NCBI GenBank assembly: GCA_022572725.1
Contig: JACZVJ010000011.1
Span: forward strand, 1-40,567
Reading direction: 5' to 3'
Length of the DNA stretch: 40,567 nt
Source of the DNA: Nitrospinota bacterium
GTDB lineage: Bacteria > Nitrospirota > Nitrospiria > Nitrospirales > UBA8639
Made by a program: the position numbers and the translations under genes. Under the pieces are notes generated by a model. That model was not told where the DNA came from, did not search any database, and worked only from the letters and a program-made list of their open reading frames with translations. Of the stretch, positions 3,467 to 40,567 are shown one piece after another (positions within the stretch are counted from its first letter, which is position 1; the number at the start of each line of letters is the position of its first letter).

Positions 3467-5074
3467 TCACCACCGGAAAATTGGAAGGCGGGCCTCCCCG
3501 CGCATGGGTTTATAGGCCACATCCAAGCAGAACCCGAGAACTTTGCGCGTTTCGGCCGGATCCAGGATTCCGTCATCCCATAGATGGGCTGTGGAGTAAT
3601 ACGCGCTGCTCTCCTGCTCGTATTGCGCTAATGTGGACTCGGTCTGCTTGTGCACCTCTTCTGCGGAAAGAGTCCGCCCTTGCTTGGCCAGTTGTTCCTG
3701 TTTGACGGAAACCAAAACCTGCGCAGCCTGCTGCCCACCCATGACGGAGGTCCGGGCATTGGGCCAGGTGAACAAGAAACGAGGATTGTAGCCCCGGCCG
3801 CACATGGCATAATTTCCTGCTCCGTGCGAGGCCCCAATGATGAGCGTGAATTTGGGAACTCTTGCCGTGGCGACCGTTTGGACCATTTTGGATCCAGCCT
3901 TAATGATGCCCTGTTCTTCATGTTTTTTCCCGACCATAAATCCAGGGATGTTTTGTAGGAAAATGAGCGGGATGCGACGCTGAGAACACATTTGCACAAA
4001 GTGCGCACCTTTAAGCGCCGACTCGGAGAACAGCACTCCATTGTTGGCCACAATCCCCACCGAGTGTCCCATCCAACGGGCAAAACCGCAGACCAATGTC
4101 GTCCCGTACCGAGCCTTGAACTCCTGGAAACGGCTTCCATCCACCAGACGGGCAATGATTTCTCGCACTTCAAAGGGTTGTCGGGCTGAACTCGGAATGA
4201 GGCTGTAGAGGTCAGTGGCTGGGTACAGGGGATCTTCTGTTTTACCATCTCGAGTAGGGACCTGGAAGGGCTTTCCCAAGTTCGAGACCAACGTTCGACA
4301 CAGTTCCAAAGCCTCCTGGTCATTCTCGGCAAGGTAGTCACTCACCCCTGACACCCTGGTATGAAGATCGGCTCCGCCGAGTGCTTCGGCGGTGACGTTT
4401 TCCCCTGTGGCGGCTTTGACCAGGGGGGGACCAGCGAGGTAGATCGTGCCGGTGCCTTTCACGATGATGTTCTCATCGCACATGGCCGGCACATACGCTC
4501 CACCAGCCGTGCACATTCCCATCACGACCGCGATTTGGGGAATGCCTAAAGCGGACATGCGAGCCTGGTTGTAAAAGATCCGGCCAAAGTCATCTTTGTC
4601 GGCGAAGACTTCCGCCTGCTTAGGCAGAAAGATTCCCCCGGAGTCCACCAAATAAATGGCCGGAAGCCCGTTCTGAAGGGCTATGTCCTGGGCACGCAGG
4701 TGCTTCTTGATGGTCAGCGGAAAGTAGGTACCCCCCTTGACGGTGGCGTCGTTGGCTACGATCACGCAGGGGCGGCCGGATATAAACCCGATGCCGGTCA
4801 CGAGTCCGGCGGCGGGGACCTGGCTGTCATACAAATCCCAGGCTGCCAATGGACTCAAATCCAGCCAAAACGATCCTGGATCAAGAAGAGCGGCTATCCG
4901 TTCCTGAGCGAGCAGCTTGCCCCGCTTTCGGTGGAGAGCGACGGCAGCCGAAGAGCCCCCGCTGTGGACCTGTTTTATGCGATCCCTCAGTTCGGACACG
5001 AGCCCTTCGTTGCGAACCCGATTTCCTTTGTGCTGCTCGGAGCTTAAATTCAACGAGGAGGTGAAGACGGTCAT
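3467..5074 (-). CDS. liuB: Acyl-CoA carboxylase carboxyltransferase (beta) subunit, probable methylcrotonyl-CoA carboxylase
   Basis: Transfers CO2 from carboxybiotin to an acyl-CoA. At 535 residues it has both crotonase-like halves: N-terminal acyl-CoA site with [15 protein letters not shown] and VDSGGIFLP, and a C-terminal biotin-binding half with [27 protein letters not shown] and [11 protein letters not shown]. These match methylcrotonyl-CoA carboxylase beta rather than AccD. The start at 5074 follows AAGG at good spacing; the ATG 33 bases upstream has no ribosome site. Downstream hydratase and HMG-CoA lyase fix the likely pathway as leucine degradation. The biotin carboxylase/BCCP alpha subunit is absent from this window, which is unusual because it is normally adjacent. 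Propionyl- or geranyl-CoA carboxylation is a less likely alternative. Confidence 0.92.
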
Positions 5075-6829: not shown

Positions 6830-8434
6830 CTAGAGAACAACCGGCTCCTGATAAGTGCCGAATACTTTTTGCAGCACGGAACAGATTTCGCCAAGGGTTA
6901 CGTTGGCCTTTACCGCGTCAATCAAGTAGGGCATCATATTTTCGCTGGAGGATGCAGCCTTCTGGATGGCATGGAGGCTGGCTTCAACTTTTTTGGAGTC
7001 CCGACGTTTCCGGAGGTCCGACAATCGGCTGACCTGGTCTCTTTCGACTTCCTGGGTAATTTTGAGGATGGGAATTTGTTGGGAGTCCTCCTCAACGTTT
7101 TCATTGACCCCGATGATAACCCGTTCCTTTCGCTCCACCTCCTGCTGGTAGGCCATGGAGGCATTCAGGATTTCCCTTTGTGGGAATCCCTGTTCAATGG
7201 CTTTCAGCATCCCACCCATTTTGTCCAGTTTTCTGAAATATTCCTGAGCCCCTTCTTCCATCCGGGTAGTCAGGGATTCCAGGAAGAAGGAGCCCCCAAG
7301 TGGGTCTACCGTATTGGTGATTTCGCTTTCCCCGGCGATGATCTGTTGTGTTCGCAACGCCAGCGTCACGGCTTCTTGTGTTGGGAGGGCGAGGGTTTCG
7401 TCCATGGAGTTCGTATGCAGGGATTGCGTGCCTCCTAGCACGGCTGCGAGGGCCTGAAGAGTCGTGCGGACCACATTATTCATCGGCTGCTGCGCCGTGA
7501 GAGAACACCCAGCGGTCTGGGCATGGCAACGCAGTTGAAGTGATCGGGGATTTTGGGGGTGATAACGCTTTTGCATTTCCCGTGCCCACAACCGTCTGGC
7601 TGCTCGGAACTTGGCGATCTCTTCGAAGAAGTCATTATGGGCATTAAAGAAGAAGGAAAGCTGGGGGGCAAAAGCGTCGACCTCGAGTCCGGCTTTGACT
7701 GCCGCTTCCACATAGGTCAGTCCGTTATACAGGGTAAAGGCCAACTCTTGCACGGCAGACGATCCGGCTTCGCGAATGTGGTACCCGCTGATGCTGATGG
7801 GGTGCCATTTAGGAACCTGTTCACTGGAAAAAGCGATGGTATCGACAATCAATCTGAGATGTGGTTCCGGCGGGAAGAGCCACTCCTTTTGTGCAATGTA
7901 TTCTTTGAGGATGTCGTTCTGAAGAGTGCCTCCGAGTTGGTTAACGGAAATTCCACGCCGCTCCGCCACCGCCAGATACATCGCAAAGAGAATGGCGGCA
8001 GGGCCATTGATTGTCATGGAGGTGGTCACTTGATCGAGGGGGATATCCTCGAAGAGGCGCTCCATGTCTTCGAGAGAGGAAATCGCCACTCCGCAATAAC
8101 CAACCTCCCCGCGGGCCCGTGGATCGTCGGAATCCAGCCCCATCAAGGTCGGCATATCAAAGGCGACGCTGAGGCCGGTCTGGCCTTGGCTCAACAGGTA
8201 CTTGAACCGAGTGTTTGTGTCGGAGGCTGAACCGAATCCCGCGAACTGGCGCATGGTCCACAGCCGACCCCGGTACATGGTGGGATGAATTCCACGGGTG
8301 TAAGGGAATTCGCCTGGAGCGCCGAGGTCGCGTTCGGGCTCCCAGTCCTTGAGGTCATCCTTTGTGTAGAAGCTCGCAATCGGTAAGCCCGATAATGAGA
8401 CGAAGCGGTCTTTTCGCTCACGAGCCTGCTGCAT
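6830..8434 (-). CDS. mcmA1: Methylmalonyl-CoA mutase large (catalytic) subunit
   Basis: Catalytic TIM-barrel subunit of 534 residues for the B12-dependent rearrangement of methylmalonyl-CoA to succinyl-CoA. Specificity residues can be read by analogy to the Propionibacterium enzyme: the TMY tyrosine is Y54 (Tyr89 equivalent), the arginine in PHLRL is R194 (Arg207) and the catalytic histidine in ISGYH is H219 (His244). Isobutyryl- and hydroxyisobutyryl-CoA mutases replace the tyrosine and arginine, so a methylmalonyl-CoA substrate is favoured. The C-terminal B12 domain is absent and is supplied by the 150-residue subunit downstream. GAGGT precedes the ATG by 6 bases. It receives propionyl-CoA-derived carbon from valine and isoleucine breakdown. 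Confidence 0.96.
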
Positions 8435-38108: not shown

Positions 38109-38181
38109 TGTGCGCATGAGCCGAGTCATTGGTGTCTGACGCCATATTCTTCGGCCGACGGCCTCATATTCCCTCCGGATT

Positions 38182-38350
38182 CAGAAAGCGGGATAGGCTG
38201 ACCACGCCTGCAGCGTGTGTCCTGTAGGAAGGAGGAGGGAGTCTTTCTCAGGCATGAAAAACACGATAGAATCGTGGGTCAAACGATCGGGCTCCCCGCC
38301 GATAGACTGCCCCCTTCGGGGAGCTACACTGACCAATATGCTCAATAGTT
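38182..38350 (+). repeat. 169-bp direct repeat, left copy
   Basis: It begins CAGAAAGCGGGATAGGCTGAC, matches 38988-39039 with one difference over the first 52 bases, is diverged in the middle and matches again at the end (CAATATGCTCAATAGTT). Total length equals the right copy exactly. It stands just upstream of the brnTA promoter; identity breaks immediately after GTT at both copies. Confidence 0.85.
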
Positions 38351-38377: not shown

Positions 38378-38405
38378 TTGACATCCGATACCTAAACGGT
38401 ATACT
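38378..38405 (+). promoter_or_regulatory. brnTA promoter: TTGACA, 16-base spacer, TATACT
   Basis: A consensus -35 (38378-38383) and a near-consensus -10 (38400-38405) lie directly before brnT. The expected start point, about 6-8 bases beyond the -10, falls at 38411-38413, within a few bases of the brnT ATG at 38415, so the message would be leaderless or nearly so. No ribosome-binding sequence precedes the ATG, which fits. Confidence 0.8.
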
Positions 38406-38414: not shown

Positions 38415-38675
38415 ATGGAATTCGATTTCGACCCGCGCAAGAGCGCCTCAAACAAGAAAAAGCACGGGATTGATTTCGTCGAGGCTCAAGTGCTCTGGGA
38501 TGATCCGGACAGGCTCGAAGTCCCTGCGCGAACGCAAGGAGAGAAGCGCTTTGTGCTAATCGGGAAAATCGCAGACACGCATTGGTCGGCCGTGTTTACA
38601 CTGCGCGCGGAGAAAGCCCGCATCATTTCCGTTCGCCGAGCGTGGAAGCAGGAGGTTGAAGCATATGAAAGCTGA
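38415..38675 (+). CDS. brnT: BrnT family toxin
   Basis: An 86-residue ribonuclease toxin of the BrnT family, with a RelE-like fold. The family start FDFDPRKSASNKKKHGIDFVEA is complete, as are RFVLIGKIADTHWSAVFTLR and the terminal RIISVRRAWKQEVEAYES. It blocks translation by RNA cleavage when free of BrnA. The gene is first in the operon, the usual order for this system, and overlaps brnA by 11 bases. No ribosome site is present because the transcript probably starts at or just before the ATG. Confidence 0.94.
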   Translation: MEFDFDPRKSASNKKKHGIDFVEAQVLWDDPDRLEVPARTQGEKRFVLIGKIADTHWSAVFTLRAEKARIISVRRAWKQEVEAYES

Positions 38676-38892
38676 GGAATTCGACAAGAAATTCGACAGG
38701 GGTGAAGACATCACCAAGTATCTCGACTTCTCGAAGGCAAGACGCCCGGGGAGAGAACAAAGGAGAGTCAACGTGGATTTCCCCGTCTGGATGATTCAAG
38801 GCCTAGACCGCGAAGCTCAGCGCCTTGGAGTTGCTCGGCAGGCTTTGATCAAGATGGTCATCGCTCAGCACATTGAGAAGGCACACGCCTGA
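38665..38892 (+). CDS. brnA: BrnA family antitoxin
   Basis: A 75-residue antitoxin of the BrnA family. The N-terminal half (EEFDKKFDRGEDITKYLDFSKARRP) wraps the toxin, and the C-terminal half (RRVNVDFPVWMIQGLDREAQRLGVARQALIKMVIAQHI) is a ribbon-helix-helix DNA-binding domain. ATG 38665 has GGAGG nine bases upstream, inside brnT; an upstream TTG is less likely. It should neutralise BrnT and repress the operon through the palindrome at 38398-38414. Confidence 0.93.
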   Translation: MKAEEFDKKFDRGEDITKYLDFSKARRPGREQRRVNVDFPVWMIQGLDREAQRLGVARQALIKMVIAQHIEKAHA

Positions 38893-38987
38893 GAAGATTC
38901 AGTAATGGGCAGAGTAGAGCACTGGTGCTTACCTGGTCGCAGTAATGGGGTCAGCACCTGATGGGGTCAGGCATGAGTATTGACTTA

Positions 38988-39156
38988 CAGAAAGCGGGAT
39001 AGGCTGACAACGCCTGCAGCGTGTGTCCTGTAGGAAGGAGTCGGGAATGTTTCTAAGTCATGAGAAACATGAAGGAATCGTGGTCAAGATGATCGGGCAT
39101 TCGTTGGACACACTGACCCAGAAAAAGAGTTAAACTGATCAATATACTCAATAGTT
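38988..39156 (+). repeat. 169-bp direct repeat, right copy
   Basis: The partner of 38182-38350, in the same orientation. It begins about 95 bases after the brnA stop. Between brnA and the repeat are two ATGGGGTCAG copies (38945-38954, 38961-38970). The repeat contains GTGTGTCC and GGACACAC as an internal inverted pair, and ends in GTT of the GTTAGCC at 39154-39160. Confidence 0.85.
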
Positions 39157-39160
39157 AGCC
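39154..39160 (+). other. GTTAGCC, integron core-site-like sequence
   Basis: GTTAGCC lies ten bases before the ATG of the unknown ORF. Gene cassettes of integrons normally begin at such a GTTRRRY-like site, cut between G and TT. Its exact complement GGCTAAC occurs at 39813-39819 over the stop codon of the same ORF, which is the cassette pattern. Confidence 0.5.
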
Positions 39161-39170
39161 ATTCAATAGA

Positions 39171-39818
39171 ATGTACACTCTGATCAAACAGAACATCGAA
39201 GCGCTGCTGGCCGCTATCAATCGCCAGGACGACATCCAGCCATATGTCTGGCTCTTAGAAACGTTGCCGAATGTTGACATTGCCGAACATGCGGAATTTC
39301 AGCGGGTATATCGTCGTTATTGGCAATTAAACCCTGCACGACTTAGCCCAGAGTATTTAGCTGCATACTTCGCCTATTTGGAACAACTGAAGCGTCAACC
39401 TATTGAGGAAGTCACAGTCGAAACTGCTGCTCGTCATTTCCTTACGGTACCTACGCATCGCAACGGTCGCCAATCGCTCCAGTTTTCTTTTGCAAGCAAG
39501 CTCGTTCACATGCTGCGTACCGAGCAGCCTGTGTACGACAGCATGGTAGAAAGTTTCTCCTTCCTACCCTCGGGAGGAGCAAAAAAAACGACTGAACAGA
39601 AACTTGCTCGTCTGCTAGTCTCGCACACGTTTCTGTACCATGAATATGAGCGCGTCCTACAACGAGGTTTACTTGCGGCAGCAATTGCCCGATTTCGAGA
39701 GCATTTCCAGGTCAATGAAGGCTACTCGGACAGAAAAGTTATTGATACACTAATTTGGAAGTTCGTAGGTTTCCTCAAGTCTGGAGCCATCAGAGATGGT
39801 GTTGTGGTCTATGGCTAA
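39171..39818 (+). CDS. Hypothetical protein in a cassette-like unit
   Basis: A 215-residue protein, probably complete and mostly helical. I do not recognise a named domain. The middle (SLQFSFASKLVHMLRTEQPVYDSMVESFSF) and C-terminal (DRKVIDTLIWKFVGFLKSGA) segments are well ordered and look conserved rather than random. There are no cysteines or signal peptide, so a soluble cytoplasmic protein is likely. No ribosome site is evident. The gene fills the space between GTTAGCC at 39154 and GGCTAAC at 39813, with the TAA stop inside the latter, as in integron cassettes. It follows brnTA on the same strand. Function unknown. Confidence 0.75.
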   Translation: MYTLIKQNIEALLAAINRQDDIQPYVWLLETLPNVDIAEHAEFQRVYRRYWQLNPARLSPEYLAAYFAYLEQLKRQPIEEVTVETAARHFLTVPTHRNGRQSLQFSFASKLVHMLRTEQPVYDSMVESFSFLPSGGAKKTTEQKLARLLVSHTFLYHEYERVLQRGLLAAAIARFREHFQVNEGYSDRKVIDTLIWKFVGFLKSGAIRDGVVVYG

Positions 39819-39840
39819 CAACGCCATCAACTCGGTCAAC
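39813..39840 (+). other. Truncated attC-like site start
   Basis: GGCTAACAACGCC followed by ATCAACTCGG resembles the left half of integron attC sites, where TAACAA and a CAA-containing inner box follow the gene stop. The right half is missing because the sequence switches to G+C-rich foreign DNA at about 39840-39846. Confidence 0.45.
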
Positions 39841-39845
39841 AAAAA

Positions 39846-40332
39846 GCGGCGCACCTTCGGCGCGCCGCTGACGGTACCGGCCGGGAAGCACGCGGCGAGC
39901 GCGTCCAGGGCGTCGCGTCCGCTCGCCAGGTCGCACTCGACGCGGCTGACCAGGTGCTGCACGCGCTGGAAGCGCTCCAGCGTGGCGTGCTCCTTGACGA
40001 CGACGGTGCCCACGCGGGCCACGCGCCCGATGTCGTTGCGCGCCAGGTCGACCAGCATGTCGTGCTCGGCGCGCTCCTTGGGGTCGGCGGCGAGCTCGAG
40101 GCCGAGGCGCTCGTCCTCGTCCGGGTCCTCGTGCCGCGGGCGCGTACCCGCGATGGGCACCACCTGGATGCGGCCGTCGCGGACCGAGACCAGGCGCTCG
40201 GGCGAGGAGCCGACCAGCGTCGAGCCGTCGGTCTCGAAGAAGAACATGTGCGGCGCCGGGTTGGTGAGGCGCAGCACGCGGTAGAGCGTGAAGAGGTCGC
40301 CCTCGCAGCGCTGCTCGAAGCGCTCGTGCGCT
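39846..40332 (-). pseudogene. trpE: Anthranilate/aminodeoxychorismate synthase component I fragment, both ends cut
   Basis: A very G+C-rich minus-strand frame encodes about 162 residues from the middle of the chorismate-binding fold: GDLFTLYR, NPAPHMFFFETD, LVGSSPERLV, PIAGTRPRHEDPDEDE, the Mg-site region ERAEHDMLVDLARNDIGRVA, and FPAGTVSGAPKVR. All catalytic motifs read normally, so the gene itself is not decayed. It stops matching directly after APKVRR on one side and before ERFEQRCEGD on the other, in the middle of the domain. PabB is an alternative to TrpE. Composition and abrupt ends suggest DNA from another organism joined by assembly rather than a native pseudogene. Confidence 0.8.
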
Positions 40333-40337
40333 CTCCT

Positions 40338-40567
40338 CGCTTCGCCCACCTCTACGCGACCATCCCGGTGCTGTTATTAACGGGGGCAGCCGGCGCCGTC
40401 GTCGCGGTGCTGGCGGGTCTGTTCCTGGAAATGAGCAGCGGGTACGACGAGGATACGGTGTTCTGGCACAAGCGCCTGGGCATCGGAGTTGCCGTGCTGG
40501 CCTTTCTGGCGTATGGGCTGAAGGCGAAGGCCCGTCCGGGGACGTCAGCGAGGCTACGCAAGGCCTA
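40338..40567 (+). CDS. Membrane protein fragment, DUF2231-like, cut at both ends
   Basis: From about 40338 a plus-strand frame reads RFAHLYATIPVLLLTGAAG, a second hydrophobic segment, GYDEDTVFWHKRLGIGVAV and a third hydrophobic segment, then runs off the window. The GYD..T.FWH..LGI pattern resembles DUF2231-type membrane domains found beside cytochrome c proteins in Planctomycetes, Verrucomicrobia and Bacteroidetes; this is recognition from memory. There is no start codon context, and the frame begins at the join with the TrpE-like fragment on the opposite strand. Confidence 0.55.

Follow-up and report, generated by a model that had tools for sequence, protein, structure and literature searches.

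A probable relic of a reverse-oriented integron with two attI sites and one gene cassette in a Nitrospinota bacterium

The whole stretch of DNA analysed here, 40,567 nucleotides long and hereafter called the window, very probably holds a decayed chromosomal integron of the reverse-oriented type, in which two attI sites surround a brnT-brnA gene pair, one attI-anchored cassette has been retained and the integrase (IntI) has been lost. The features are collected in Table 1.

Table 1. Features of the integron relic and of the adjoining contig end (positions in the window).
Feature	Position	Strand	Basis or remark
Relic of intI 3′ end, before attI copy 1	38152..38181	+	matches end of C128 IntI remnant
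attI copy 1 (older; ends in GTT, followed by CGG)	38182..38350	+	homologous to attI beside intact IntI
attI copy 1 direct repeats	38192-38203, 38301-38312, 38323-38334	+	
Promoter-like site of brnT-brnA, TTGACA-16-TATACT	38378..38405	+	11/12 consensus matches; consensus match only
BrnT-type RNase toxin gene	38415..38675	+	Pfam BrnT_toxin, E 1.4e-25
BrnA-type antitoxin gene	38665..38892	+	NCBIfam NF047399, 127 bits (cut-off 60)
REP-like 22-mer (RAYT-associated end), abuts attI copy 2	38963..38984	+	44 genome sites
attI copy 2, ends at GTT cut point	38988..39156	+	91% to C128 copy; homology to G087 and G088
attI copy 2 direct repeats	38998-39009, 39107-39118, 39129-39140	+	
Junction core GTTAGCC (attI GTT + cassette AGCC)	39154..39160	+	L084 homology starts; complements GGCTAAC at 39813
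Cassette ORF, 215 aa	39171..39818	+	69% aa identity to L084 cassette protein
5′ part of cassette attC, R′ = GGCTAAC, right half missing	39813..39858	+	aligned to L084:4640-4726
Chimeric contig end, foreign DNA outside integron	39842..40567	.	PF00425 on minus strand; GC rise

Results

The ORF and its boundaries

An earlier, sequence-only reading of this DNA had assigned to an unknown ORF the architecture of an integron gene cassette, and the motifs on which it relied are in place. GTTAGCC (39154-39160) lies ten bases upstream of the ATG at 39171, while its exact complement GGCTAAC (39813-39819) overlaps the TAA stop codon (39816-39818) and is followed by TAACAACGCC..CAACTCGG. By itself this 7-mer pair proves little as evidence for a cassette, about 2.5 occurrences of GGCTAAC being expected in the window from its composition and 2 being seen. 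What makes the cassette reading decisive is a homologue and not the 7-mer match alone. A scan of 84,980 species, with one genome per species, returned a single protein closely related to the 215-aa product, from the gammaproteobacterial MAG REEB260 (locus L084). The DNA of window and L084 is 73% identical over a stretch that opens with the A immediately preceding GTTAGCC, spans the ORF and reaches into the attC, which is complete in L084 (4640-4726). This attC folds into a bottom-strand hairpin with R′ paired with R″ (z -3.9, no shuffle equal), and the element over the stop codon in the window, which aligns to it, is the attC left half that had been suspected. With a single gene, a GTT core, a matching attC R′ and boundaries identical in L084, the ORF at 39171-39818 is, as judged from its sequence, an integron gene cassette.

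A second attC-like hairpin (z -4.7) is found upstream of the cassette in L084. Moreover, a distant homologue (39%) from another family of the window's own phylum has an attC-like element downstream (z -2.7) and a Y1 transposase gene directly upstream. No homologue of the cassette protein was detected in viral contigs or plasmids. Searches of Pfam, NCBIfam, PADLOC and PDB gave no match to the protein, those of PHROGs gave nothing significant, and the AlphaFold model of the 215-aa protein (pLDDT 43) is too poor for use.

The attC of the window is incomplete, and we infer the 3′ end of the cassette from L084. The alignment to L084 allows the attC to be followed to about 39858, after which foreign DNA continues to the contig end; there GC climbs from about 0.5 to 0.75 and a fragment of a chorismate-binding gene (Pfam PF00425) lies on the minus strand. 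Since attC and foreign DNA join in a stretch common to both sequences, as in a misassembly, the start of the chimeric end at 39842 is approximate. Apparently, another foreign piece lies within this end from about 40335.

The 169-bp repeat as attI

In its homologues from G087, G088 and C128 the 169-bp repeat is adjacent to IntI and ends at the GTT insertion point, which identifies it, by homology, as attI. In the relative G087 an intact IntI gene (TIGR02249 score of 464 bits, cut-off 265) shares its strand with the repeat homologue, which starts right where this gene ends; this attI ends in GTT followed by AGCC and leads into a cassette whose attC starts with GGCTAAC, after which come more attC sites. 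A second relative, G088, has the same intact order of IntI, attI, cassette and attC array, here with GTT followed by GGGC and with GCCCAAC. In both relatives, IntI, attI and cassettes are on one strand. When nine of the copies were used to build a sequence model of the repeat, the model matched 19 of 98 genomes, counting that of the window, in 8 genera; among these 19 an intact IntI adjoins attI only in G087 and G088.

A third copy in the same genome, on contig C128, is 91% identical to copy 2 and follows an IntI remnant 83% identical to the IntI of G087. IntI adjacency together with a terminal GTT is thus seen in G087, G088 and C128, and in the window a 30-bp intI trace precedes copy 1. Homology with the C128 copy can be traced back to 38988 for copy 2 and to 38152 for copy 1; from the latter position it extends through attI at 78% identity. 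Copies 1 and 2 are 79-80% identical to each other and both end at GTT, as had been stated for the repeat preceding the ORF. The further statement that this repeat begins with GGCTGAC holds for the presence of the motif (39002-39008) but not for the repeat start: the motif falls inside an internal direct repeat of copy 2. The direct repeat GATATACTGACC (≤3 mismatches) is located at -159, -50, -28 and, in some copies, -16 from the cut point; each attI copy contains 2-4 of them as compared with about 0.05 in shuffles, and we regard them as predicted IntI-binding sites.

The cut-point core was also compared with the DNA that follows it. At 8 of 15 attI-like loci the exact reverse complement of the 7-mer core occurs within about 1.3 kb downstream, whereas permuting the cores among loci gives 2.0 matches on average and none of 2000 permutations reaches 8. 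At the other 7 loci no R′ corresponding to the core is seen within 1.3 kb, a distance before which some contigs stop. On one contig of the genome G037 (C13, locus L029) two same-strand attI copies are found on the minus strand, at 8223-8389 and 3576-3739. The first copy retains a vestige of the IntI 3′ end, and the attC of its cassette has a matching GCCCAAC; the second copy has lost the GTT.

The sequence-only reading had taken the locus for a possible cluster of attC sites lacking an integrase (CALIN), with the repeats as attC sites and with brnT-brnA and the ORF as successive cassettes. Repeats that end at GTT, a gene pair between the two copies and a window devoid of IntI agree with such a cluster; nevertheless, we give it very little credence. 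On bottom-strand folding the repeat copies yield z values of +0.46 and -0.65, copy 2 lacking R′/R″ pairing, while five of six attC controls give z from -2.7 to -8.8 (the G037 attC control, folded with its flanks, reaches -0.78 only). Likewise, the attC scan of the window returned no complete attC; this custom scan serves as support only, because it gives spurious hits in shuffled DNA and fails to find some genuine sites, among them the first attC of G088. An Rfam search gave no matches. The repeat was accordingly rejected as an attC on both folding and scanning. In addition, its homologues are single sites beside intact IntI and not the spacers of an array. Finally, a CALIN takes at least two attC sites without intI, and the window has no complete attC and one truncated attC up to the contig end.

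The brnT-brnA pair

No recognisable attC was found for the brnT-brnA pair in the attC scan of the window; since the pair also has a promoter-like site of its own, we do not assign it to a cassette. Its position between two attI copies of the same orientation recalls the arrangement attI1-aadB-attI1, which is mobile in experiment (PMC12901181), and the pair could be conceived as an attI-bounded unit (attI-brnTA-attI) moved as a block by IntI, in the manner of the unusual attI-type cassettes known from class 1 integrons. This appears highly improbable, as identity is higher between copy 2 and the C128 copy (91%) than between copies 1 and 2 (79-80%), which accordingly do not look like a recent duplication, and as a REP end, not a clean attI boundary, stands before copy 2.

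Remnants of the integrase gene

None of the TIGR02249 matches of the genome lies on the window contig (C155), in agreement with the earlier remark that no integrase is visible, and no intact IntI adjoins attI at the window locus, as it would in a complete integron. The assembly (99% complete, 221 contigs) contains no intact IntI either, its best match scoring 118.8 bits against the cut-off of 265, although an intact IntI could be missing from these contigs. The remnants on C128 and C86 read MIGP where intact IntI has MIYTHV; the catalytic Tyr is consequently gone in both. C-terminal IntI scars, about 25-110 aa long, occur at several places in the genome, on C86 (L037), C128 (L026), C184 (L039), C186 (L038) and C200 (L010). 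After the C184 scar a different attI with a GTTAGGC core seems to come next.

REP and Y1-transposase sequences

Copy 2 starts abruptly, 3 bp past a REP-like 22-mer. This 22-mer has 44 genome sites within 3 mismatches (reversed control: 0) and occurs beside Y1 transposase genes on C28 and C158. Its position suggests, without proving it, that the intI once joined to copy 2 was deleted or detached by a RAYT-type element. REP or Y1-transposase sequences are repeatedly found at the broken edges of integron parts: ahead of attI copy 2, near the C86 IntI remnant, on the upstream side of the truncated homologue of the cassette in G346 and, as judged solely from reading the sequence, also upstream of an IntI remnant in G006 (38963-38984 in the window, L037:10705, L123 and L071:5785-6465). 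That the 169-bp repeat is an unrelated dispersed repeat, e.g., of a transposon, with motif matches arising by chance, would accord with its several copies, the nearby REP and the chance-level frequency of GGCTAAC, but it can be practically dismissed in view of the IntI adjacency in G087, G088 and C128, the result of the core/R′ test and a cassette homology that stops at the core in another phylum.

Discussion

The integron relic can be derived from the intact arrangement of G087 and G088. There, transcription of IntI runs towards attI, a site of about 150-170 bp that begins where intI ends. IntI would bind the attI direct repeats and cut at the terminal GTT, and circular cassettes would be inserted there via their folded attC, giving the order attI-GTT, core, gene and attC. 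The 215-aa gene would have been captured behind attI copy 2 and thus stand first in line. Later, intI probably decayed, leaving the 3′-end trace before copy 1 and, in place of the intI of copy 2, the REP end. With its integrase gene lost, the cassette would be frozen, unless IntI acts from elsewhere.

Reverse-oriented integrons are known from Treponema chromosomes, in which intI is transcribed towards attI (PMC3607928). The window differs in that the integrase has been lost and two attI copies are left, in a different phylum, and in that its attI type of about 169 bp is conserved across genera. Clusters of attC sites without IntI (CALIN) are common (PMC9024848); IntegronFinder 2.0 reports two of them in one Nitrospira genome, a case relevant to the window only if both belong to one phylum. 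The window resembles them in carrying cassette DNA without a neighbouring integrase, but its anchor is an attI and it has at most one (truncated) attC, while default CALIN calls need two attC sites and attI is searched only for class 1 integrons (PMC9024848). The attI-type cassettes of integron classes 1 and 2 (e.g., attI1-aadB-attI1) likewise have a gene enclosed by two attI sites, an arrangement known to be mobile in class 1 integrons (PMC12901181), and brnT-brnA is placed in the same way. These cassettes, however, sit in mobile integrons with an active IntI, whereas in the window the integrase is gone and the two attI copies did not arise by recent duplication.

Cassettes and reverse integrons are thus already known, while recurrent IntI-less attI relics in this order appear to be new; our literature search, outside the coverage of which many journals lie, returned no earlier report of IntI-less relics of attI plus cassette. 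The occurrence of the cassette in both the window and a gammaproteobacterium clearly illustrates transfer between phyla.

A more speculative idea, to which we give a low probability, is that in this order attI outlives the integrase, forming modules that recur with an intI 3′ end, an attI and a cassette and are perhaps separated or dispersed by RAYT/REP single-strand transposition rather than moved by IntI. If this were true, attI would persist as a docking and first-cassette module. Standard software misses attI outside class 1 integrons, where the site is also poorly described (PMC9024848). A conserved attI whose direct repeats are recognisable offers a handle on first cassettes and on dead integrons that current tools miss, and it makes IntI-attI recognition in reverse-oriented integrons testable.
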